Below are positions 3,710-56,787 of a stretch of DNA of 64,000 nucleotides, in pieces. Positions within the stretch are counted from its first letter, which is position 1. Each line of letters begins with the position of its first letter. The stretch is from Prosopocoilus inquinatus (taxonomy: Eukaryota > Arthropoda > Insecta > Coleoptera > Lucanidae). The notes beneath the pieces are model-generated. The model saw only the letters and a program-made list of their open reading frames with translations, did no database searches and was not told the DNA's origin. The position numbers were made by a program, and so were the translations under genes. The stretch spans positions 26,743,946 through 26,807,945 of the forward strand of contig CM069874.1 of assembly GCA_036172665.1 (NCBI GenBank). Reading direction: 5' to 3'.

Positions 3710-3721
3710 CATATAATCTTC
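3710..3721. repeat. 12-bp target-site duplication, left copy
   Basis: CATATAATCTTC occurs here and again at 4334-4345, exactly bounding the retrozyme-like insertion. A 12-bp duplication fits target-primed retrotransposition of the Penelope kind better than a cut-and-paste transposon. Confidence 0.75.
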
Positions 3722-3771
3722 TAGAAAAATTTTGTGCAAATCGTTCTTGATTGCAGTGAAAACCTCGAGCA

Positions 3772-3820
3772 GCCTCTGGACAGCTGTTTCAGCCCTGCTT
3801 GGGGCTTCTTCAGCAGAGAC
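3772..3820 (-). ncRNA. Hammerhead ribozyme, apparently intact (X1)
   Basis: Read on the - strand: stem I 5' arm GUCUCUG, core CUGAAGA, stem II AGCCC with loop CAAGCA and GGGCU, core GAA, stem III ACAGCUGU, cleavage base C, then stem I 3' arm CAGAGGC. Stem I has seven pairs including one G-U, and stem II five Watson-Crick pairs. All core bases of the hammerhead consensus (CUGANGA, GAA, U followed by H) are present. Stem III is a palindrome with no loop, so it can form only between two molecules or two tandem units. The newt satellite and some metazoan retrozymes are known to work this way. Predicted cleavage is 3' of the C complementary to position 3779. Confidence 0.88.
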
Positions 3821-4082
3821 GTAGCTCGACATTCCCACTGCAGACCAAAAACGACTTGCCCAATTTATTCGCAAATGCGATGTAAGAATGATGAACAATT
3901 AAAATAGCGACATCTTACTATCGCTTTTTGACCTGACATTGCAGTAGGATAGACAAATTGAAGCGGGATTTGCTCCTAATGAGTCCCCCATGCAAGGCAG
4001 CCATGCTTGCTGTCAAAGCATAATGAAAGTTTTAGAAAAATTTTGTGCAAATCGTTCTTGATTGCAGTGAAAACCTCGAGCA

Positions 4083-4131
4083 GCCTCTGGACAGCTGTTT
4101 CAGCCCTGCTTGGGGCTTCTTTAGCAGAGAC
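4083..4131 (-). ncRNA. Hammerhead ribozyme with a core mutation (X2)
   Basis: Same 49-nt layout as the upstream copy, but the core reads CUAAAGA instead of CUGAAGA. The third core base (G5 in hammerhead numbering), which is essential for catalysis, is A. All helices are preserved. From established hammerhead biochemistry this copy should not cleave. Confidence 0.85.
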
Positions 4132-4333
4132 GTAGCTCGACATTCCCACTGCAGACCAAAAACGACTTGCCCAATTTATTTATTTATTTTTCTAAAACTT
4201 TCATTATGCTTTGACAGCAAGCATGGCCGCCTTGCATGGGGGACTCATTAGGAGCAAATCCCGCTTCAATTTGTCTATCCTACTGCAATGTCAGGTCAAA
4301 AAGCGATAGTAAGATGTCGCTATTTTATTTGTT

Positions 4334-4345
4334 CATATAATCTTC
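4334..4345. repeat. 12-bp target-site duplication, right copy
   Basis: CATATAATCTTC, identical to 3710-3721, closes the retrozyme-like insertion. Confidence 0.75.
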
Positions 4346-4384
4346 GTAAGACGTAATATTTGATCGGGTTTTTAGGACAAACAA

Positions 4385-4445
4385 ATTGATTTTAAATCGT
4401 TCAGCTGACCAGTTTCGGTTTTCTTTTAAACCCTCCTCAGAGCCT
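4385..4445 (-). ncRNA. Hammerhead-like motif downstream of the Penelope endonuclease
   Basis: On the - strand the sequence runs CTGAGGA, a GGGTTT...AAACC hairpin, GAAA, then CTG-GT-CAG. This matches the order CUGANGA, stem II, GAAA, stem III of a hammerhead. The closing U and H bases after stem III are not clean, so the copy is probably degenerate. It lies about 340 bp beyond the stop codon of the GIY-YIG endonuclease frame on the same strand, where Penelope-like elements carry their terminal repeats with hammerheads. Confidence 0.5.
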
Positions 4446-4786
4446 AAAAAGGTATACAGTGAGATTCTATCAACTAAGAATTTAAAAATATTTTTACGCT
4501 GCTGTAAAAAAGAGAAAAAACAACGGTCAGTCTAAGACTGGTAGATACAGAAAAGTAAACACTTACGGTCTTATTAAAACATTTTAAAACAAAAGTTCAT
4601 CAATATGGTATGTTTTTTAAACGATTCACAATAAATGATTAAAGGTAAAACAGAATTAAAAGTAACGTTAGAAAACGTACGCCAAATGACAACGAAGCTG
4701 GTTTTTACTCAGCAACATGACAGGTTAAGCAACTTATAAGTTAGAGTGAAATTCCCCAAGTATTGGCCAACCTAAGAAAAATGAAT

Positions 4787-5269
4787 TTACAACCGATTGA
4801 CAGTGTGATATTTGATAAGGTTATGGTAAATGATACTTAAATTTTGTGTGTCCGTTCTTAAATTTATAGAATTTTTATTATTCTTTATATGAATCATTTC
4901 AGAGGTTAATCTTTTGGTAAAAACCGGTTCATAATCTAAAATCTTAACATTGTCAAAATCGAACGTATGTCCTGTGGAAAAATGATGAGTAGATAGAGCA
5001 GTTTTTTTTTCGGATTTTGATTGTTGAGATGGATTACAATCATATTTATGATTTCTCATTCTATGGCATAGTTTTTGTTTAGTTTGGCTAATATAAGAGG
5101 AATTACACCCGATACAATTTATTTTATAAACAACGTTGCATTGATTAAGCAAAGGGGTTTTTGATTTAAGTTTAGTACATAAGCTGTTGGTTGATTTTAA
5201 GGAATAAAAAGCTATTTTAGTTTGATTATTGTTTAAGATTCTGGCAATGTTATAAGATAAGTTAGGCAG
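4787..5269 (-). pseudogene. Penelope-like element, RT tail and GIY-YIG endonuclease remnant
   Basis: An open stretch of 160 codons ending in a stop at the low-coordinate end, closed on the 5' side by a stop codon just above 5269. The first 39 codons, before any methionine, read like the C-terminal linker of Penelope-like reverse transcriptases (LPNLSYNIARIL, then KIAFYSLKSTNSL). The GIY-YIG nuclease follows: CNVVYKINCIGCNSSYISQT, with the paired cysteines and the Y-I core, then RMRNHK and a later STHHFSTGH segment that supplies the histidines of the CCHH zinc motif found in Penelope endonucleases. The GIY-YIG nuclease makes the target nick for retrotransposition. The reverse transcriptase body is missing, so the copy is 5'-truncated and dead. 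It is the likely class of helper for the hammerhead elements nearby, though not necessarily this copy. Family assignment is firm; the subfamily is not determined. Confidence 0.82.
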
Positions 5270-11949: not shown

Positions 11950-11961
11950 GATAAAAAAATC
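11950..11961. repeat. 12-bp target-site duplication, left copy
   Basis: GATAAAAAAATC, repeated exactly at 12604-12615, bounds the second retrozyme-like insertion. Confidence 0.7.
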
Positions 11962-12155
11962 ATGAACATATAAAATAGCGACATCTTACTATCGCTTTTT
12001 GACCTAACATTGCAGTAGGATAGACAAATTGAAGCGGGATTTGCTCCTAATGAGTCCCCCATGCAAGGCGGCCATGGTTGCTGTCAAAGCATAATGAAAG
12101 GATTTTAGAAAAATTTTGTGCAAATCGTTTTTGATTGCAGTGAGAACCTCGAGCA

Positions 12156-12204
12156 GCCTCTGGACAGCTGTTTCAGCCCTGCTTGAGGCTTCTTCAGCAG
12201 AAAC
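12156..12204 (-). ncRNA. Hammerhead ribozyme, apparently intact (Y1)
   Basis: Stem I GUUUCUG with CAGAGGC, core CUGAAGA, stem II AGCCU-CAAGCA-GGGCU with a terminal U-G pair, core GAA, stem III ACAGCUGU, then C. Differences from X1 (C to U in stem I and in stem II) keep the pairing through wobble pairs. Compensatory or pairing-neutral change of this kind suggests selection on structure, though with few copies this is only suggestive. Confidence 0.85.
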
Positions 12205-12503
12205 GTAGCTCGACATTCCCACTGCAGACCAAAAACGACTTGCCCAATTTATTCGTAAATGCAAAAACGATTTGCACAAAATTTTTCTAAAATCCTTTCA
12301 TTATGCTTTGACAGCAAGCATGGCCGCCTTGCATGGGGGACTCATTAGGAGCAAATCCCGCTTCAATTTGTCTATCCTACTGCAATGTTAGGTCAAAAAG
12401 CGATAGTAAGATGTCGCTATTTTATATGTTCATCATTCTTACATCGCAATTGCGAATAAATTGGGCAAGTCGTTTTTGGTCTGCAGTGGGAGTGTCGAGC
12501 TAC

Positions 12504-12552
12504 GTTTCTGCTGAAGAAGCCCCAAGCAGGGCTGAAACAGCTGTCCAGAGGC
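12504..12552 (+). ncRNA. Hammerhead ribozyme, apparently intact (Y2)
   Basis: Plus-strand copy: stem I GTTTCTG at 12504-12510, core CTGAAGA at 12511-12517, stem II AGCCC-CAAGCA-GGGCT at 12518-12533, core GAA at 12534-12536, stem III ACAGCTGT at 12537-12544, cleavage C at 12545, stem I return CAGAGGC at 12546-12552. All consensus core bases are present. Confidence 0.87.
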
Positions 12553-12603
12553 TGCTCGAGGTTCTCACTGCAATCAAAAACGATTTGCACAAAATTTTTC
12601 TAA

Positions 12604-12615
12604 GATAAAAAAATC
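12604..12615. repeat. 12-bp target-site duplication, right copy
   Basis: GATAAAAAAATC, identical to 11950-11961. Confidence 0.7.
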
Positions 12616-38593: not shown

Positions 38594-38815
38594 TCTGAAT
38601 TACATTTAATATATTCCGAAATTAAACTGATTAATCTGAATTACATCTAACGAATTCTGAAATTAAATTGATAAATCTGAATTACAAGCGATGCAATCTG
38701 AAACTGATTTGATTTTTCTGAATTTTAAATAACATATTCTGAAATTAAATGAACAATTCTGAATTACCTTTGAAAATTTTCGAAATATAGTTGATATTTT
38801 CTGAATTACAGCTGA
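38594..38815. repeat. Minisatellite with 41-bp period
   Basis: TCTGAATT starts at 38594, 38635, 38676, 38717, 38758 and 38800, a period of 41 bases (once 42). Each unit contains a second related word, CCGAAATTA or CTGAAATTA, about half-way, giving a 20-21-bp sub-period. Units differ by point changes, so the array is old. Degenerate related sequence continues for some 200 bp to the left. Confidence 0.8.
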
Positions 38816-41486
38816 AAATGGTGTAGATCAATGTGCTAGAATGAAACCGACCAGGTACTATGAAAGGTGCAGGTTTAAAAAGTTGAAGAAAATATAGATC
38901 AAAGAAGGCGTGGTTCTGAAGAATAATATGTAGATACAGACTAAAGAAGAGGGGACAGAGGGAGAAATAAAGCCAGGAAAAAAGCCAAAAGAATGATACA
39001 TATAAATATGTTTATGTTTGAATCGTCTTATAGACATACAATTTTGATTCAATAATACTTTTGACATAATGTTCTTAATTTCAGTAGAGAAAATCTTCCC
39101 CTAGTTACATGTAAACCAGAAGTCTTAATTAAATGGCAAAGTTGAAAAATCCATTCGAGCTCACCACATACGGAGCGAAGAAACATTTATTGCGCGAAGG
39201 AGATTACAAAAGTCCGAAGTGCAGTAAAGGTACGAAAACGCTAAATTTATGATTATTGCAGTTTTGGGGAAATCCGCAAACTTTAAACGTCGACTATATA
39301 TGGCCGGCGACCCACACACCTTTTATCTCAGCTGGGTATCGATTACAGGAAGCGAGGAAATTGAAAAACACGTCATTTACAGAGCGATTATGCAGATGTG
39401 GACAATATGAAGCCCTGATATTCGAATGTTGTTCTGCGTCCGTGAATTACGGGGCACATTCGTTCAAGTACGTGTATTAATTATTGAAGTATCCGGGCGG
39501 CATATGATTCTGCACGATTTATTTTATTTTGGATTTATTTTGTTTATTTTTTGGCGTGAAATTTGAGCTCATGGTACTTAATTTTTCTAATAGATTCACA
39601 GATGTGCAAAGTTCGACAAAATATGAATAATTACAAACATCTTCACTCGTCTTCTACAAACTGATATATAAGAAAATGTGCGCCCGTGCACATTTACAAC
39701 TTGAATTTATTACGTCACGTTACGTACAGTAGACCAAAAATTTTTGAATTTACAAAAAATTACTAATTATAAATAATGGGAGTATTTCACTAAAGTTGTA
39801 AATTGTTAACGCCATCTACAAATTGATCAAAAGTCACTATACATAACGCGAAATCAATCCAGGGACACGTTGTATAACCAAAAAGTTATCACTCAACACA
39901 TCAAATTTTCAGGAAAATCATTGGATCTCTTTGCAAAACGAAGAAAGATAAAACTAATCAAATATTAAATATTGTATAAATCTTTGACAAAAACAAAAAC
40001 CTTTCCATGGAATAATAAAACATTCCACCATAAAAAGTTGTTGAATATCTATTTTATTAAACAAATGCGAAACCTTGTAAATACTCCTCATGTTTTTTTA
40101 ATAATCACTACCCTCCTTTTGAATGAACTTATTTGTATTAAAAAAAATGAAGTAACAAAAAATAATGAATCGGGATGCTTAACATACGGGCGTTAGTAAA
40201 TAAGTAAGAGATTTATTCTGTCAATCATTTCCAATTACATGAATACATTCAGAATCAGCACAAAATTAGTCAAAACGAATAATAATAAATAGTTCACAAT
40301 GAACAATTACAAACACAACAATCACGAACTATCACAGAAGGAGACTAGATGAACTCGTAAAACTCAGTAATTGTCAAAGTAGGGATTAAAAAGTCCCTGC
40401 CTCAGTTTATCGGTCATTTCTACACATAATCTACTTGATAAGCACAACAATAATAATTCTAGAGGTTAACTGCACTGTCTGTAGCATGTCACCAAGCCAG
40501 TGACGCAGGCGCTAGGATAATGTCTCAGACAATTTTCCGTGTGACTCACAATATTTACGGTAACACAAGTAACAACAACTCTAACATTTCAATTTAAGTG
40601 TAACGACTGCTCGAGCAAATGTTAAATATGTGATCAAAATCCGGAGTCTCCTTTCGAACAAAGTGAATATGAATTTTCACGATTTCTGGGCCAGAACTAC
40701 TAAAAAATGAAAGTTGATTTTTCACCCTGAATTGCATTACCCTTGTAAGGGTGAATCTGTCTGTAGTCTTCGATAAAATTATGTTCACTTTCCTCACTCA
40801 ATTTACCTAAATATCTATTACGGAACGAAGCTGTTCCAGTATCAACACCTTGGTATTATTTATAATAAATAAACTGAGGTGCATGAATTTTGTGTTTTAT
40901 TAAAAGCATCTTTATGGATTCAGCTCTTGGAGGTATGTCAAGAATTTGATTATGTGTAATTATTTAAGCTCATCAAACTTTTTGTGAATTTATATTTCAC
41001 GCAGCAATTTAGATGTATTCTGGATTTGCTTGATTATTATTGATTAGCATATATTTTATGTACTTTCAAAATATAAAAATAGTATTTGCTAATATACGCT
41101 AGCCTTGTATTATGTTAATTTTCTTGTTTAAGTTGCGCATAATACTTACCCACGAAAATCTTAAGTATACATGTTTCATTTAATTTTAATTCATTTGGAA
41201 TGAGATTATAACATTTTAGTGACATTGTAACAAATGATTTCTGATATAACGTGTTTCTAGATAACAAGGTTCTCAAGTTAACATTTGATTTAATGTCCTA
41301 GTTAGGAATATTTATTTGAAACAAGTCAAAAATACATGCGATTTTTATATATGTATTATATACATTAATATAGGTATTGACTAATTGCTGTCATTACCCT
41401 TAGTTCCGTAAAGGCGTCTCTACAAGATTGTCTAGAACTTAGTCCTGCGAATAGCTTTTTTTTGAATTAAAGTGTATAAGACAATA
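38816..41486. other. Non-coding, nothing recognised
   Basis: No gene is supported. The 74-codon frame at 39256-39480 shows no domain or intron signal. It could be part of an unrecognised exon, but there is no evidence for that. Confidence 0.4.
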
Positions 41487-49989: not shown

Positions 49990-51245
49990 GTATCCTATCC
50001 CAGACAGCAAGAAGACGTATTTATCACGTTACTTTTAGGTATAGTCATCACTTTAATGACGTTTGAAAACGATGTGTAAATAACGTTTACCTCACGTGTA
50101 TAATTCGCAAGATGTTCGTAAAATGTCGTCACATAAAGACGTTTCATAAACGTTGGTTGATGTTGTTTCCTTAACATCATTTAATGACGTTTCAAAAACC
50201 TTTCTTGATGATGTTTTCTTCTCGTCATTTAAAGACGTTTCACTAACATTTCTTGAACGTCGGTTGATAACGTTCCTTAAAAGTTTATTCTAACCATAGC
50301 ATTTGAACAGTACAAAATCCCAGCCAGCAGAATAACGTGTAAGGGCGTTATAATGATCTCATCTCTGTCACTAATATGTCGTCATTTTAACATGCAAAAG
50401 ACGTCTGAGCGACGTCTTAATCACTTCAACTTTTTCACAAAAGTTATTTTTTTATAATAACTTACTAGGTCGTTGAGAATTACTTTCAAATGATCTCGTT
50501 GGTTTCAAAAAGGTAACGTTCAAATATTTATGCATTAGTTATCAAGTGCTAAAATTGCGCCATATTGTGTTTACATTCAAAACTAATTTACATGCTACTA
50601 TTTCACTTAATTTAACAATTCTATTATTAATTTTGATATAATTGGTTTCAGATATAGTATTCAAAGTTTTTACTTAAACTTTTTGTTTAGTCTTAAAAAT
50701 GTCTTTAAACTAATAATTTAAAAAAATAAACATAGTAACATTTTGTCACTTATTATATTGACGTGATAATGACGTCCCTTTCACGTTTTTAATACGTATC
50801 GTATGATTTGTCACATTCACGTTACTTTTGGGATATATGACGTCAATTACGTAAATAACCTAAAACTGACGTAATTCCGACGTCACTCTGCTAGCTGAGG
50901 TAGTTCAAATTAATCATTCCGTTATTTTATGATCCGAACATAGTTAACAAACTATCTGAAGGATTGTTTCGAACCGTTCAAATGCTACGGTTCCAACAAA
51001 CCTTTTAAATGCCAGTTAGTAATGAAAAAAAATATTTACTTATTAATAATAAGAAGTAATAGGTGTTTTACTATAAATGACGGCAAAAGTTATCAGCAAA
51101 GACCGTCATATTAACTTTATAACGATACGTATTAGAAACGTCATTAATTGGTGATGATATGGCCAAAGGATCTTTACGGTTCAACGTCACCTTTAAATGA
51201 CGTCAAAATAACGTCATGAGTCATGAGTCTGCTACCGTAGGGTCT
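49990..51245. mobile_element. Non-autonomous DNA element rich in TGACGT words, with a nested relative
   Basis: The outer ends CCCAGACAGCAAGAAGACGT (about 49998) and the inverse of ACGTCATGAGTC..GCTACCGTAGGG (about 51240) are similar. An inner pair, CCCAGCCAGCAGAATAACGT (about 50326) and ACGTCACTCTGCTAGCTGAGG (ending about 50901), gives a second element with the same type of end. Between the ends, ACGTCA, GACGTT and TAACGT words recur dozens of times in both orientations with spacing of 20-40 bases, which looks like subterminal transposase-binding repeats. No coding region. The superfamily is not determined because target duplications are unclear. Confidence 0.55.
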
Positions 51246-52041: not shown

Positions 52042-53390
52042 ATGAAGCTTGTAGAATTAAAGGTCAGAGAGCTGCGTGAAGAGTTAGACGAAAGAGGTCT
52101 AGAAAATTCTGGTAAGAAAATTATCTTACAAGAACGGCTAGAAAGGACCCGGAAACATTTGAGTTCGAAATTGAAGACGCCGCAGCCCTTTTAAAAAGAA
52201 TGCAAGAAATTAATGGAAAAATAGAACAACTCAGTGAAGCTGTGAAATTAGAAGTGAAAGAACAAATACATGGAATGAGAAAACAAATGGAAAGTTTGGA
52301 AATGAAGATGGAAACCTACAGTTTAAAAATCGATTTGAATATAGAAAGCATGAAGGTTCAAATCGATGAAAAGTTTGAAGATCTTAAAACCAAATGTGAC
52401 GAGAAAATTGACAACAAAATTGAAGATGTCAGAGTTCAGTTTGATAGTGCAATTAAGGACATGAAATTTGAATTCGACGACAAACTTGACGAAAAATTTG
52501 GCGGAATAAAGATTCAGTTCAAGGATAAACTAGAAGACTTGGCTAAACAACTGCATAAAGTAGAGCTTGGTCGTACCATTGCACCATCAGCCGGATCGTC
52601 AAGTCAGAAATTGAAACCCCCAAAATTTGAAGGCGATTTACCGTGGTCTACTTTCATTCGGCAGTTCAAAATTGCTGCTGATGCGAATGGGTGGAATAAC
52701 TGTGACAAATTTTGGCTCTGCGAGGTCCAGCATTGAATGCCTTACAGTCTATTCCTGAGAAAGTCCAAAACAATTTTGATCAACTGGTGGAGAATTTGGA
52801 AATGCGTTTTGGTGATGCACACATGAAGCAACTCTATACCATTCAATTAAAAACACGTACCCAGAAGAATAGTGAGTCACTCCAAGATTTTGAACTTGAC
52901 ATTGAAAGACTGGTACGCATGGCGTATGGAGATTTCTTTCCCGAACCAGTTTTTCATCGCTTGGCTATCCAAGCATTCATCGACGGCGTTAAAGACCAAG
53001 AAATGCAGCAAGTATTGCGTTTGGGTAACTTCTCTAAATGCACTGATGTGCTGGCCCGTGCATTAGAATTCGAGGCAGCCAAGCAAGCCTCCAGAACTTT
53101 GGTACGCGTACGAGAGGTGAAAGCTGCTGATGAGAGTACCTTAATAGAAATCCTGGAAAGGCTGAAACACCTTGAAGAGAGAAAATTCACGAACAATAGC
53201 AGACGATTTACAGTCTGTTGGAACTGTGGTAAAGCAGGTCATTTGAGTTCCAACTGCCGGCGCAAACGAGCGCGCCAAGACGACGACAGTGAGTCTTTAA
53301 AACTAAAACCAGTCAGCAAGAAGGGGCGCATGCTGACTGATTCTCTGGATAGCCCCAGGATTGTCTCTGTTTCCAGGATAAGAAATAATG
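52042..53390 (+). pseudogene. gag relic (SAP-like N-terminus, coiled coil, zinc knuckle)
   Basis: Gag would form the virus-like particle and bind the RNA. The start ATG at 52042 opens with MKLVELKVRELREELDERGL, a SAP-like helix-turn-helix. A frame break near 52150 leads into the frame open over 52200-52736, which is charged, helical and repetitive (probable coiled coil) and ends in the capsid region (FEGDLPWSTFIRQFKIAADA). A second break near 52700-52735 leads to the frame starting about 52712. This carries more capsid sequence and then the nucleocapsid knuckle CWNCGKAGHLSSNC (CX2CX4HX4C, about 53217-53258) followed by basic residues. No uninterrupted product is possible. The breaks look like small deletions, not programmed frameshifts. 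Confidence 0.88.
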
Positions 53391-53701
53391 AAAACAGTTT
53401 GATAGCAGATGGACAGATTGGGAAAAGATCTTTCCAATTCACGATTGATACGGGAGCGAATGTGTCCATTATAGGAACAGATCTTTTACCAAAGTGGAAG
53501 CTAATGAATAATGGAAAAATATACCATATCCAAACAGCTACTGGCGAGGTTACTCCAGTTTGTAATGAAGCAGAAATTGACATTAAAATTGGAAGTATGA
53601 AATTTAGACAATTTAGACACAGGGTGTTAGTGGCAGACATTGTTGATGATTTCATACTTGGAATTGACTTCATGAAGAAAAACTGTAGATTTGAAAGATA
53701 A
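53391..53701 (+). pseudogene. Retroviral-type aspartic protease
   Basis: Continues in the same frame as the zinc knuckle. The catalytic motif FTIDTGANVSIIG lies at about 53440-53478, and the C-terminal ILGIDFM at about 53655-53676. It would cleave the Gag-Pol precursor as a homodimer. The frame closes at 53701 while the reverse transcriptase is in another frame, so the junction is another break. The domain itself looks complete. Confidence 0.88.
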
Positions 53702-55553
53702 AGTGCTACGTATTGGGTCTGAAGAAATACCTCTTCATGTTCCTGGAAATTTACCAACAGTACTAAAAGTTAAACTGGTAGAAAGTGTAAACATTCCCGC
53801 CTTAACCGATAAGCTAATTTTGGCTAAGTTGGAGGGCAATCTTAGTGGCTATCCTGCCGGAATCATACAGCCAACCGAGATCAGCAGCGCCAAGAAAGGA
53901 ATTTTACTGGTTGGGACACTGGTGAAGATTCGAGAAACAATTCCTATTCGTCTTGCAAATATTAACAGCTACGCAGTTACCATACCCAGCGGAACAGTGG
54001 TGGGTAAATGTGAAGCCATTGCTTCTATAAACCACATTCAAGCAAACGATGCATCCGCTCGGCATCAGTCTGCCATTTTACTACCACCACTGGAAAAATT
54101 GCTTAAAGGTACAACAACTTTGTTAACACCCAAGGAAGCCGCAGACGTAGGAGGACTGTTTCGAAAATTCAAGGGAATCTTCGCCTACACCGAAGATGAC
54201 TTAACGCGGACGGACATCGTGCAGCACAGAATCAACACCGGCGATTCAAATCCAATTCGTCAACCCGCACGAAGACTGCCATTGGCGAAGAGAGAAGAGG
54301 CTGATAAGTTAATCAAGAAGATGCAGGACCAAGGAGTTATTGAACCATCGCAAAGTCCATGGGCATCTCCTGTTGTACTTGTGACTAAGAAGGATGGCAG
54401 CACACGTTTCTGTGTGGACTACAGGCGATTGAATGACGTGACGAAAAAGGACAGCTATCCCTTGCCCCGGATCGACGACACAATTGACACCTTATCCGGT
54501 GCGAAATGGTTCTCGACTCTAGACTTGAAGAGTGGCTACTGGCAAGTTGGAATGCATCCCGAAGATAAGGAAAAGACGGCTTTCACTGCGGGTAATGGCC
54601 TATGGCAGTTTAAGGTGATGCCTTTTGGGTTATGCAACGCCCCAACCACTTTTGAGCGATTCATGGAATTGATATTGCTTGGACTTAGCTGGAAGACTTG
54701 CCTCGTTTACTTAGATGACGTAATTGTCGTTGGAAGGACTTTCAAAGAACACCTTGCGAATTTGAAGAACGTCTTCGAACGGATTGAGGAGGCGAAGTTG
54801 AAATTGAATCCGGTCAAATGCAAGTTCTTTCAGAAGGAAGTAAAATACCTCGGACATGTTATTTCTGAAGCTGGAGTCGCGACAGACCCAGACAAGATCT
54901 CAGCCGTTAAGAACTGGCCACCACCGAGAAATGTGCATGAATTACGAAGTTTCTTGGGACTTTGCACATATTACAGACGATTTGTTAAGGACTTTGCAAA
55001 GGCAGCGAAACCCCTACATGCACTGACCGAAGAAAAGACCACATTTGTCTGGAGTGAAAACTGTCAAGAGGCTTTTGATAACCTAAAGGACCTTTTGGTG
55101 ACCGCTCCGATATTGTCTTATCCAAAATCTGAGGGCAAGTTCATTATCGATAGCGATGCAAGCAACTATGGAATTGGGGGCGTACTGTCGCAAGTACAAG
55201 ATGGACAAGAGCGTGTTATTGGTTACTTCAGTAAAGTTTTGTCAAAAGCCGAAAGGAACTACTGTGTAACCAGGAAGGAACTTCTTGCTGTAGTGAAAAC
55301 GACTGAGCATTTTCACAAGTATCTTTATGGTCGACAGTTCCATCTTCGCACAGACCATGCAGCATTGAAATGGTTGCTTCAGTTTAAGAACATAGAAGGC
55401 CAGCTCGCCAGGTGGATAGAGAGATTACAGGAGTACGACTTTACAATCGAACATCGTCCAGGTCGTGTCCATAACAACGCAGATGCGCTGTCTAGAAGAC
55501 CTTGTCCTGAGGATTGTCGGCACTGCTCAAGGCAGAAGACAAGGAAGGGATAA
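53691..55553 (+). pseudogene. Reverse transcriptase and RNase H region of pol
   Basis: A 620-codon open stretch without a credible start codon, so it is the middle of a polyprotein. Reverse transcriptase spans about residues 170-420: the palm block FCVDYRRLND, STLDLKSGYWQV with the first catalytic Asp, PFGLCNAPTTF, and YLDDV at residues 340-344 with the catalytic pair. RNase H follows from about residue 480: IIDSDASNYGIGG, RKELLAV and RTDHAAL supply the acidic residues. It ends with the linker NADALSRRPCPE typical of gypsy elements just before a frame change at about 55530. This is the best preserved part of the element. Confidence 0.94.
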
Positions 55554-56787
55554 TTCCCATTAGAAGGACCGGCATTGTAGTAGACAGATGGCAACCGGAG
55601 ACTATCAAAAAGGAGCAAGGAGAAGATCCTGAAATAAAGGCCATAATCGAATGGAAGGAGAGGGATCGACGTCCAACCTGGGCAGAAATATCAGGAAAGA
55701 ATCCAGTGTTCAAAACATACTGGGCACAATGGGATTCTCTGGACTTGAAGGATGGTTTGTTAATCAGAAAATGGGAATCACCTGATGGGAGTGAGGTGAA
55801 AGACCAATTAGTACTTCCAAGGGTAAGAGTCGCTGAGGTCCTAGAAGAAATTCATTGCGGGCCAACCGGTGGACATTTGGGCATCAATAAGACATTATCG
55901 AAAGTGCCAGAAAGGTTCTACTGGGCGAAATGTAGAACTGATGTAGAAAACTTGTGTGCCAGATGCACAACTTGCGCTGCAGTATCCAGAAACCAACCGT
56001 GGGAACAAATACATCATGGTAGTGACAGATTATTTTTCCAAATGGCCAGAAGGTTACGCTTTACCAAATCAAGAGTCGATAACGGTTGCGAATGCCTTGG
56101 TAGAGAACTGGATAACAAGGTTTGGAGTAACCATGGAGATCCATTCCGATCAAGGCAGGAACTTTGAGGGACATATTTTCCAGGAATTGACTCGGTTACT
56201 GGGGAACTACTCCTTTGCATCCGCAATCAGATGGAATGGTAGAACGGTTCAATAGGACTCTGGAAAGACATCAAGCCAAAGTTGTTTCGAAAAACCAACG
56301 AGATTGGGATGAACATCTTCCTCTTTTCTTAATGGCTTACCGTTCTGCAGAGCACGACACAACTAAACGAACACCGTACAGTGTTTTGTTTGGAAGGGAA
56401 ATGCGTTTGCCTTGTGACCTAAAATTTGGGCTACCAGAGACTCGACTGCAATTAAGTGAGTACTCGCAAGATCTGGAACGCCGTTTAACTCGAACCCACG
56501 AGTACGTGCGACGTAATATCAACTTGGCGACCGACAAAATAAAGACTCGCTACGATCGACGAGCCAATGAAACAGGATTTCAAGAAGGGAATCAGGTGTG
56601 GCTCTACAATCCTAGGAGGACTCGCGGACTCTCTCCAAAACTACAGGCGTCTTGGGAAGGACCCTATAAAATAATTAAGAAGATCAACGATGTGGTGTAC
56701 AGGATACAACAACTACCCCGTGGAAAAATGAAAGTGATCCACATCGACCGTTTGGCTCCATACTCTGTTCGGAACGAACAGAACTAA
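55514..56787 (+). pseudogene. Integrase, broken by two frame changes and an internal deletion
   Basis: Integrase would insert the cDNA. The first frame (to 56167) carries the HHCC zinc domain: IHCGPTGGHLGI and CARCTTC at about 55850-55977. The core then shifts frame near 55985: PETNRGNKYIMVVTDYFSKW and the second catalytic Asp in IHSDQGRNF (about 55995-56165). Between CAAVS and PETNRG the usual 35-40 residues with the first catalytic Asp are absent, so about 100-120 bp appear deleted. A second shift near 56200 leads to HPQSDGMVERFNRTLE with the catalytic Glu, and then to the C-terminal DNA-binding part (SWEGPYKIIKKINDVVYRIQ, ending 56787). The enzyme cannot be functional. Confidence 0.9.

Follow-up and report, generated by a model that had tools for sequence, protein, structure and literature searches.

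A hammerhead retrozyme of Prosopocoilus inquinatus with mostly two-armed, head-to-head insertions and two fixed outer ends, likely integrated by Penelope-like machinery

The window analysed here is a stretch of 64,000 nucleotides from the lucanid beetle Prosopocoilus inquinatus (GCA_036172665.1, contig CM069874.1, positions 26,743,946 to 26,807,945 of the forward strand). An insertion built from a 311-nt unit with a type I hammerhead, and flanked by a 12-bp target duplication, lies at 3710-4345 (Table 1). Next to it are the remains of a Penelope-like element (PLE) at 4348-5269, which is in the same sense as the first arm of the insertion and whose end falls within a few bases of the right target-site duplication (TSD). 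A second insertion of the same family, missed by an earlier sequence-only reading of this DNA, is found at 11950-12615 with its sides swapped, the B end on the left and the A end on the right. Elsewhere in the window, Pfam recognizes frames of a Gypsy-type LTR retrotransposon on the plus strand at 52116-56787 (zinc knuckle and aspartyl protease, reverse transcriptase (RT) and RNase H), beyond which integrase-like frames were seen by reading only, and short tandem repeats occupy 38594-38819 (periods 41/20) and 50134-50256 (periods 48/24).

Table 1. Features of the two retrozyme insertions and of the adjoining Penelope-like element, in window coordinates
Feature	Position	Strand	Remarks
Left TSD CATATAATCTTC	3710-3721	.	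Sequence; best match of the TSD script (window locus = L046)
Retrozyme arm 1	3722-4180	-	Begins on the left at unit 60 (site A) and ends at 221 after 1.49 turns
Type I hammerhead ribozyme, predicted	3762-3832 (approximate bounds)	-	Core CTGAAGA at 3807-3813; sequence reading, sub-threshold Rfam, local fold
Second hammerhead, probably inactive	4073-4143 (approximate bounds)	-	311 bp on; core at 4118-4124 reads CTAAAGA
Head-to-head joint of arms 1 and 2	4181-4185	.	5 nt, segmentation
Retrozyme arm 2, inverted relative to arm 1	4186-4333	+	Reaches from unit 199 (site B, outer end) to 49 (inner end)
Right TSD CATATAATCTTC	4334-4345	.	Sequence
3' part of decayed PLE adjoining the insertion	4348-4579	-	Own minimal hammerhead, core CTGAGGA at 4434-4440
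GIY-YIG endonuclease remnant of the same PLE	4787-5269	-	160 aa; Pfam domain in relatives
Left TSD GATAAAAAAATC, second insertion	11950-11961	.	Sequence
Second insertion, arm from site B (unit ~206)	11962-12262	-	308 nt by segmentation (11955-12262)
Second insertion, inverted arm from site A (unit 58)	12266-12603	+	338 nt; core motif CTGCTGAAGA at 12508
Right TSD GATAAAAAAATC, second insertion	12604-12615	.	12-bp duplication

The first insertion is real, not an artefact, but it is more than a tandem: its minus-strand arm, 1.49 units long, is joined head-to-head to an inverted arm of 151 nt. The sequence-only reading had described a tandem 311-bp unit, with a copied stretch longer than one unit, between copies of a 12-bp target duplication. 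The duplication (CATATAATCTTC) is present on both sides, and segmentation gives the minus-strand arm a length of 462 nt (3719-4180, the first 3 nt being common with the TSD), so that the arm is indeed longer than one unit. The tandem, too, is visible as a direct repeat of 151 nt (3719-3869 and 4030-4180, 311 bp apart, 99% identity), but the description was incomplete, since the inverted arm (4186-4336 by segmentation) had been overlooked; this arm is 99% complementary to 3891-4041 over 151 nt. The longest stop-to-stop frame within the insertion is 71 aa, with no RT or GIY-YIG endonuclease frame, and phage and viral collections contained no match. Rfam matches to mir-172 in the window were read as the head-to-head hairpin rather than as a miRNA.

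Two hammerhead cores on the minus strand, 311 bp apart, had also been proposed; the first stands, while the second lacks the invariant G5. In the first, reading of the sequence gives stem II as AGCCC/GGGCU, then GAAA and stem III as AC[AGCU]GU, with cleavage predicted between 3779 and 3778 and a local fold of -30.1 kcal/mol. Written in the hammerhead sense, the unit reads CUCUG-CUGAAGA-AGCCC-loop-GGGCU-GAA-AC-AGCU-GU-C/CAGAG, and its stem III consists of 2 base pairs and a palindromic tetraloop. Because of the loss of G5, the second hammerhead is probably inactive. At gathering scores, Rfam reported no match at all in the window; below threshold, Hammerhead_HH9 scored 16.6 bits (gathering 52, E 0.5) at 3759-3829 on the minus strand. 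The newt and axolotl hammerhead repeats, as far as they are described in PMC7229834, likewise have a short stem III with a palindromic tetraloop, and their repeats of about 330-350 bp are of similar size; they are described as direct tandem repeats, whereas the beetle arms lie in dispersed insertions and range from 0.04 units (L089) to 5.5 units (L024).

How large is the family? A 40-nt hammerhead core pattern has 16,013 matches at no more than 2 mismatches in the 650-Mb genome (8,000 forward and 8,013 reverse), a figure that counts copies of the core and not insertions, and the same pattern read backwards has none under the same conditions. A genomic search with the unit listed 101 matches, from 40 scored of 491 candidates, and the best other copies among them are 98% identical. 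Where neighbouring cores lie on the same strand within 1 kb, their spacing is 309-312 or 624 in 9 of 9 cases. To study the structure of insertions, loci were segmented against the unit on both strands, with the unit numbered from the predicted cleavage site. Set 1, chosen by similarity to the window unit, comprises 38 loci round the best unit matches and 42 elements, L032 having been dropped as the same insertion as L031. Sets 2 and 3 (L077-L104) are the first 28 core clusters by position on contig C1, one that was already in set 1 having been passed over; they were not chosen by structure, and all are exact core matches, so that the core is intact in each. All loci come from one genome.

Within set 1, all 12 positions of the hammerhead core are intact in 97 of 104 sequence passes. 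This, together with the 311-nt unit, the absence of any frame above 71 aa, TSDs of about 12 bp and the 16,013 core matches, agrees with the earlier proposal of a retrozyme-like retroelement. As far as sequence can tell, the window element thus has the features of a retrozyme, namely hammerhead core, repeat unit, lack of coding capacity, low GC and TSDs. The metazoan non-LTR retrozymes covered in PMC7229834 are alike in having a type I hammerhead, no LTR, thousands of core matches and TSDs longer than 4 bp; their units are about 170-400 nt with GC below 45%, against 311 nt and 43.7% here. Those retrozymes, however, are described there as direct tandem repeats, with RNA circles, whereas the beetle family has head-to-head arms and two fixed outer ends. 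The insertion pattern, with its head-to-head arms and fixed ends, is what is new in this retrozyme; the texts covered by a non-exhaustive literature search on retrozymes yielded no report of head-to-head insertions or of fixed start sites.

Most retrozyme insertions are built of two arms placed head-to-head, and their outer ends are fixed, one at site A (unit position ~60) and the other at site B (~199), 139 nt apart. Of the 28 loci in sets 2 and 3, 25 are A+B with their arms head-to-head, two are B+B (L096, and L099 with a 12-bp TSD), one is one-ended (L079), and none is A+A. Four of the 25 were assigned by reading: L078, a single A+B insertion that has a common duplication and whose filler amounts to about 190 nt; L089, with a B arm of 12 nt; L090, the least certain, with a B arm that is probably even shorter; and L093, which is A+B next to an older fragment. 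Counted strictly, the script finds A+B in 14 of the 21 elements of set 2, and the printed ends give it for 7 of 8 in set 3. Set 1 has 31 A+B elements among its 42, no A+A, no B+B, two cut by the locus edge and nine others, which are one-armed or nearly so (L012, L016, L026, L028 and L033 at 2802), odd-ended (L011, L014, L030) or an old fragment (L038 at 2743). When the outward-facing 3' ends of L077-L104 are considered individually, 52 of 53 fall into two windows (24 at A, 28 at B, 1 elsewhere) that together make up 18% of the unit; these windows, 49-76 and 185-212, were drawn after set 1, and the lower B edge was widened by 1 for L099. Moreover, among the first 100 core places (exact matches, contig C1), all 21 changes of strand within 1 kb are head-to-head.

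Head-to-head arms by themselves would also be expected if a LINE (L1-like) machine moved the retrozyme and the inverted arm arose by twin priming, with the second cDNA primed internally at a random place. In L1 biology, twin priming gives head-to-head inverted arms, TSDs and microhomology at the joint, and the same three features would be predicted here; an L1 product, however, is fixed at one 3' end only, its second start being random. In the retrozyme both outer ends are fixed (52/53), and all but one of the 28 loci in sets 2 and 3 have a second fixed end (25 A+B, 2 B+B). Animal retrozymes are thought to use either LINEs or PLEs, according to the account in PMC7229834. The listed retrozyme ends have no consistent poly(A) or microsatellite, although L028 has an A-run, and the PLEs of this same genome show the two-site pattern (see below). 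Movement by a LINE is therefore a reading that we consider improbable.

The target duplications were scored with a script. A score of at least 6 was reached by 27 of 31 A+B elements in set 1, 12 of 14 in set 2 and 6 of 7 in set 3, and by 30 of 43 set 1 elements overall (L032 included), as against 2.5% of 437 mismatched pairs of set 1 flanks. In sets 1 and 2 taken together, TSDs at this score are present in 42 of 63 elements. Their lengths run from 10 to 18 bp with a mode of 12, and they are 84% A+T. Variable length of the duplications figured in a refuting condition named beforehand, and here the variation is only mild.

MITEs also show inverted arms, TSDs and fixed ends, and one might therefore ask whether the family is a DNA-level repeat, a satellite or a MITE-like DNA transposon, with a fortuitous hammerhead. 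Such an origin would account for the same three features in the retrozyme, but its two ends come from different parts of the unit, which leaves no terminal inverted repeat of fixed design. In addition, joints and arm lengths differ between insertions, while copying at the level of DNA would preserve them, and the hammerhead core is somewhat more conserved than the rest of the unit (0.993 versus 0.978). We give this explanation almost no weight.

The joints between the two arms are informative about how the arms came together. At 63 head-to-head joints from sets 1-3, the positions at which the two arms end are unrelated: 7 of 63 pairs lie within 10 nt, with 4.3 expected. Nine joints contain at least 5 nt of filler; the remaining 54 comprise 15 with 1-4 additional bases, 9 without any, 4 that share 1 bp and 26 with microhomology of at least 2 bp, the last class compared with 18% in random joints. 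These positions bear on the idea that a single cDNA folds back and copies itself, a self-priming reaction proposed for Penelope inserts in Adineta in PMC3846280. Fold-back would produce head-to-head arms of the same haplotype, and the seven joints whose arm ends nearly coincide fit it; but it requires the inner ends to meet at one place, and that number is to be set against the 4.3 expected. Nor does it explain why the second outer end is fixed at site B, and arms can far outreach their partners (in L009, a B arm of 806 nt faces an A arm of 100 nt). Fold-back is largely refuted by the joint positions, and we regard it as very improbable.

Do both arms derive from the same RNA? At 10 diagnostic positions in set 1, a version in which two alignment-prone positions at site A were dropped and 6 nt were trimmed from segment ends, opposite arms of an element match in 564 of 620 comparisons (0.91); for rounds of the same arm the figure is 553 of 592 (0.93), and for different elements it is 0.63. 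With all 12 positions, untrimmed, the values are 0.78 for opposite arms, 0.91 for same-arm rounds and 0.59 for different elements, and swapping arms between elements gave 0.55 (s.d. 0.03), none of 5,000 swaps being as high as the 0.78 observed. Opposite arms agree slightly less well than the rounds of a single arm. For the most part, then, the two arms derive from one RNA or from one type of RNA, while a minority may come from two RNAs. Total divergence between arms (same arm 1.7%, opposite 2.5%, other elements 3.5%) was rejected as a test of a common template; it is confounded by age, and diagnostic positions were therefore used. Measured by total divergence, only 24 of 33 elements have opposite arms that are closer than other elements are.

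The length of some arms favours a template in the form of a 311-nt RNA circle: L030 has an arm of 1,375 nt (4.4 turns) and L024 one of 1,714 nt (5.5 turns). A different possibility is that two-ended priming took place on a linear template, either a multimer or a read-through transcript. The arms that make 4.4 and 5.5 turns argue against it, and the rounds of one arm agree as if from one molecule, although a transcript from a single locus could give the same agreement. Furthermore, arm ends in sets 1 and 2 show no accumulation where the hammerhead would cleave (0 of 53 for A arms and 2 of 53 for B arms, with 1.9 expected for each), and run-off on cleaved monomers is therefore not the rule. On the other side, L078 and L079, about 6 kb apart, have 432 nt in common at 98%, running from the flank into the arm (the second arm of L078) and including an identical internal deletion. 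The L078 cDNA looks as if it had been copied from a linear read-through RNA of its neighbour L079, taking flanking DNA along, or else there was a transfer from L078 to L079. A Penelope protein has also used linear RNA in vitro, according to the account in PMC11167929. On balance we consider a linear template rather unlikely as the general case. An apparent heap of A-arm lengths just past one turn (15 of 53 at 312-365 nt, against 1 of 53 B arms) resembled a reverse transcriptase stopping at its own cDNA, which would speak for a circle. It was set aside as evidence, because set 1 was picked by a 311-nt match starting at unit 58, a choice that biases it towards A arms no shorter than 311 nt; among the arms of sets 2 and 3, that range contains just three lengths, 333, 337 and 341 nt.

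The predicted fold of the RNA may be considered alongside the two sites. Folded as a circle, the window unit reaches -110.5 kcal/mol, compared with -77.1 for shuffled sequences (z -6.2), and sites A and B are both unpaired within one multiloop. When 37 element monomers were folded, site B lay in the most open stretch (0.86 unpaired, against a mean of 0.35), with site A at 0.56, and the two sites occupied one loop in 14 of 37 only. In these models, the openness of site B is robust across monomers, but the loop common to both sites is not.

The PLEs of the same genome provide the most direct comparison. The decayed copy in the window has its own minimal hammerhead, with GAAAC at 4412-4416 and predicted cleavage at 4407/4406 by sequence reading. 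Its endonuclease remnant has no Pfam GIY-YIG score itself, and the 4 of 4 relatives found, at 44-51% identity, carry that domain. Genomic relatives of the remnant at 94-96% identity exist, one of them in a 443-aa frame with an RT domain. The RT domain of the relative at L053 gives an RVT_1 score of 28.8 bits, just below the cut-off of 29.6. The organisms named among 120 listed relatives of this PLE protein are insects. The PLE 3' part was seen at only this one of 58 retrozyme loci (L009-L046, L077-L096); insertion beside PLEs is not a rule for the retrozyme.

PLE copies, whose 3' repeat carries the hammerhead, end either at a site A (...CACGTTTTTCAAAA) or at a site B 35 nt further on (...CATTTATTATT). 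In the callable two-armed loci, one arm ends at A and the other at B in 8 of 8 (L050, L052, L053, L054, L061, L062, L067 and L074), the B end having been called by reading in L061, L062 and L067, where the circular reference of the script ran past its end. Thirty PLE loci were scanned (L047-L076); in L055 and L056, which are alike, and in L058 the second arm ends elsewhere, and the others have one arm, none or no clear terminus. The flanks of the eight A+B loci match with scores of 5.7-10.1, whereas none of 56 mismatched pairs exceeds 5.6, and the matching TSDs are 8-15 bp. The retrozyme has the features of a Penelope-type insertion: head-to-head repeats, two fixed start sites, a tail on one end and an AT-rich TSD. 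The hammerhead-bearing PLEs treated in PMC3846280 and PMC11167929 (with a GIY-YIG endonuclease, inverted pseudo-LTRs and an optional tail) are likewise similar: their repeats lie head-to-head, cDNA starts at two sites, one inverted end bears a tail, the targets are AT-rich, and TSDs and hammerhead RNA are present. The retrozyme differs from PLEs in having no protein, a unit of 311 nt, a full type I hammerhead and sites that are 139 rather than 35 nt apart.

The match of the retrozyme to one particular PLE family is tentative, because the A-site likeness consists of one short AT-rich motif (the retrozyme site reads ...CACAAAATTTTTCTAAAA), the B sites are unlike, and 3 of 3 sampled copies of another PLE family (L105-L107, hammerhead CTGATGAAGTTGTTAAATACAACGAAA) have a different end, stopping at ...GATTTTCAACTTACTTC. 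A 16-nt motif common to the retrozyme unit and the PLE was dropped, its chance expectation being roughly 0.1 by estimate. In the passages covered of earlier work, the partner machinery of retrozymes is given as unknown (PMC7761336, PMC11722881).

Biochemical work on a full-length Penelope protein (PMC11167929) indicates that it cleaves and extends both strands in vitro, prefers AT-rich targets and starts internally at two adjacent sites matching the genomic tail. No difference in start site was seen between top and bottom strand, and these data alone therefore do not explain the A+B rule. The Adineta inserts mentioned above are described in PMC3846280 as inverted head-to-head pseudo-LTRs with a tail on one end and TSDs of 8-10 bp.

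Taking the fixed two-point starts together with the same A+B rule in PLEs, Penelope machinery is therefore the likely mover of the retrozyme. We consider it likely that the family is a non-autonomous animal retrozyme with a 311-nt type I hammerhead unit, integrating by two-ended target-primed reverse transcription with Penelope-like machinery. By analogy with the animal retrozymes of PMC7229834, transcripts would self-cleave at the hammerhead and be ligated into 311-nt circles. A Penelope-like protein with RT and GIY-YIG endonuclease would then cut an AT-rich site in both strands, leaving 3' overhangs of about 12 nt, as the TSDs suggest. One 3' end would prime reverse transcription at site A of the RNA and the other at site B, in keeping with the observed ends; each cDNA would be extended backward on the template over a variable distance, in some cases through several turns, as the arm lengths indicate; and the two cDNA ends would finally be joined head-to-head, often at the short microhomologies seen at the joints. 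A more specific version gives a pair of Penelope-type RTs a single retrozyme RNA circle with two initiation sites, one for each cut strand, and thereby two opposed multi-turn cDNAs that are stitched by microhomology; we put the chances of this version at about even.

The two fixed cDNA start sites are a signature, and the pattern is common to the neighbouring Penelope family. If the more specific version is true, retrozymes would live as parasites by imitating the signal for two-site starts in Penelope RNA, and each insertion of a Penelope element would likewise involve an A+B pair. The retrozyme insertions offer a large collection of natural integration products that record, one by one, the start sites, the template haplotype, the number of turns and the joint, and they allow tests of a Penelope mechanism that is known in vitro from one full-length protein.
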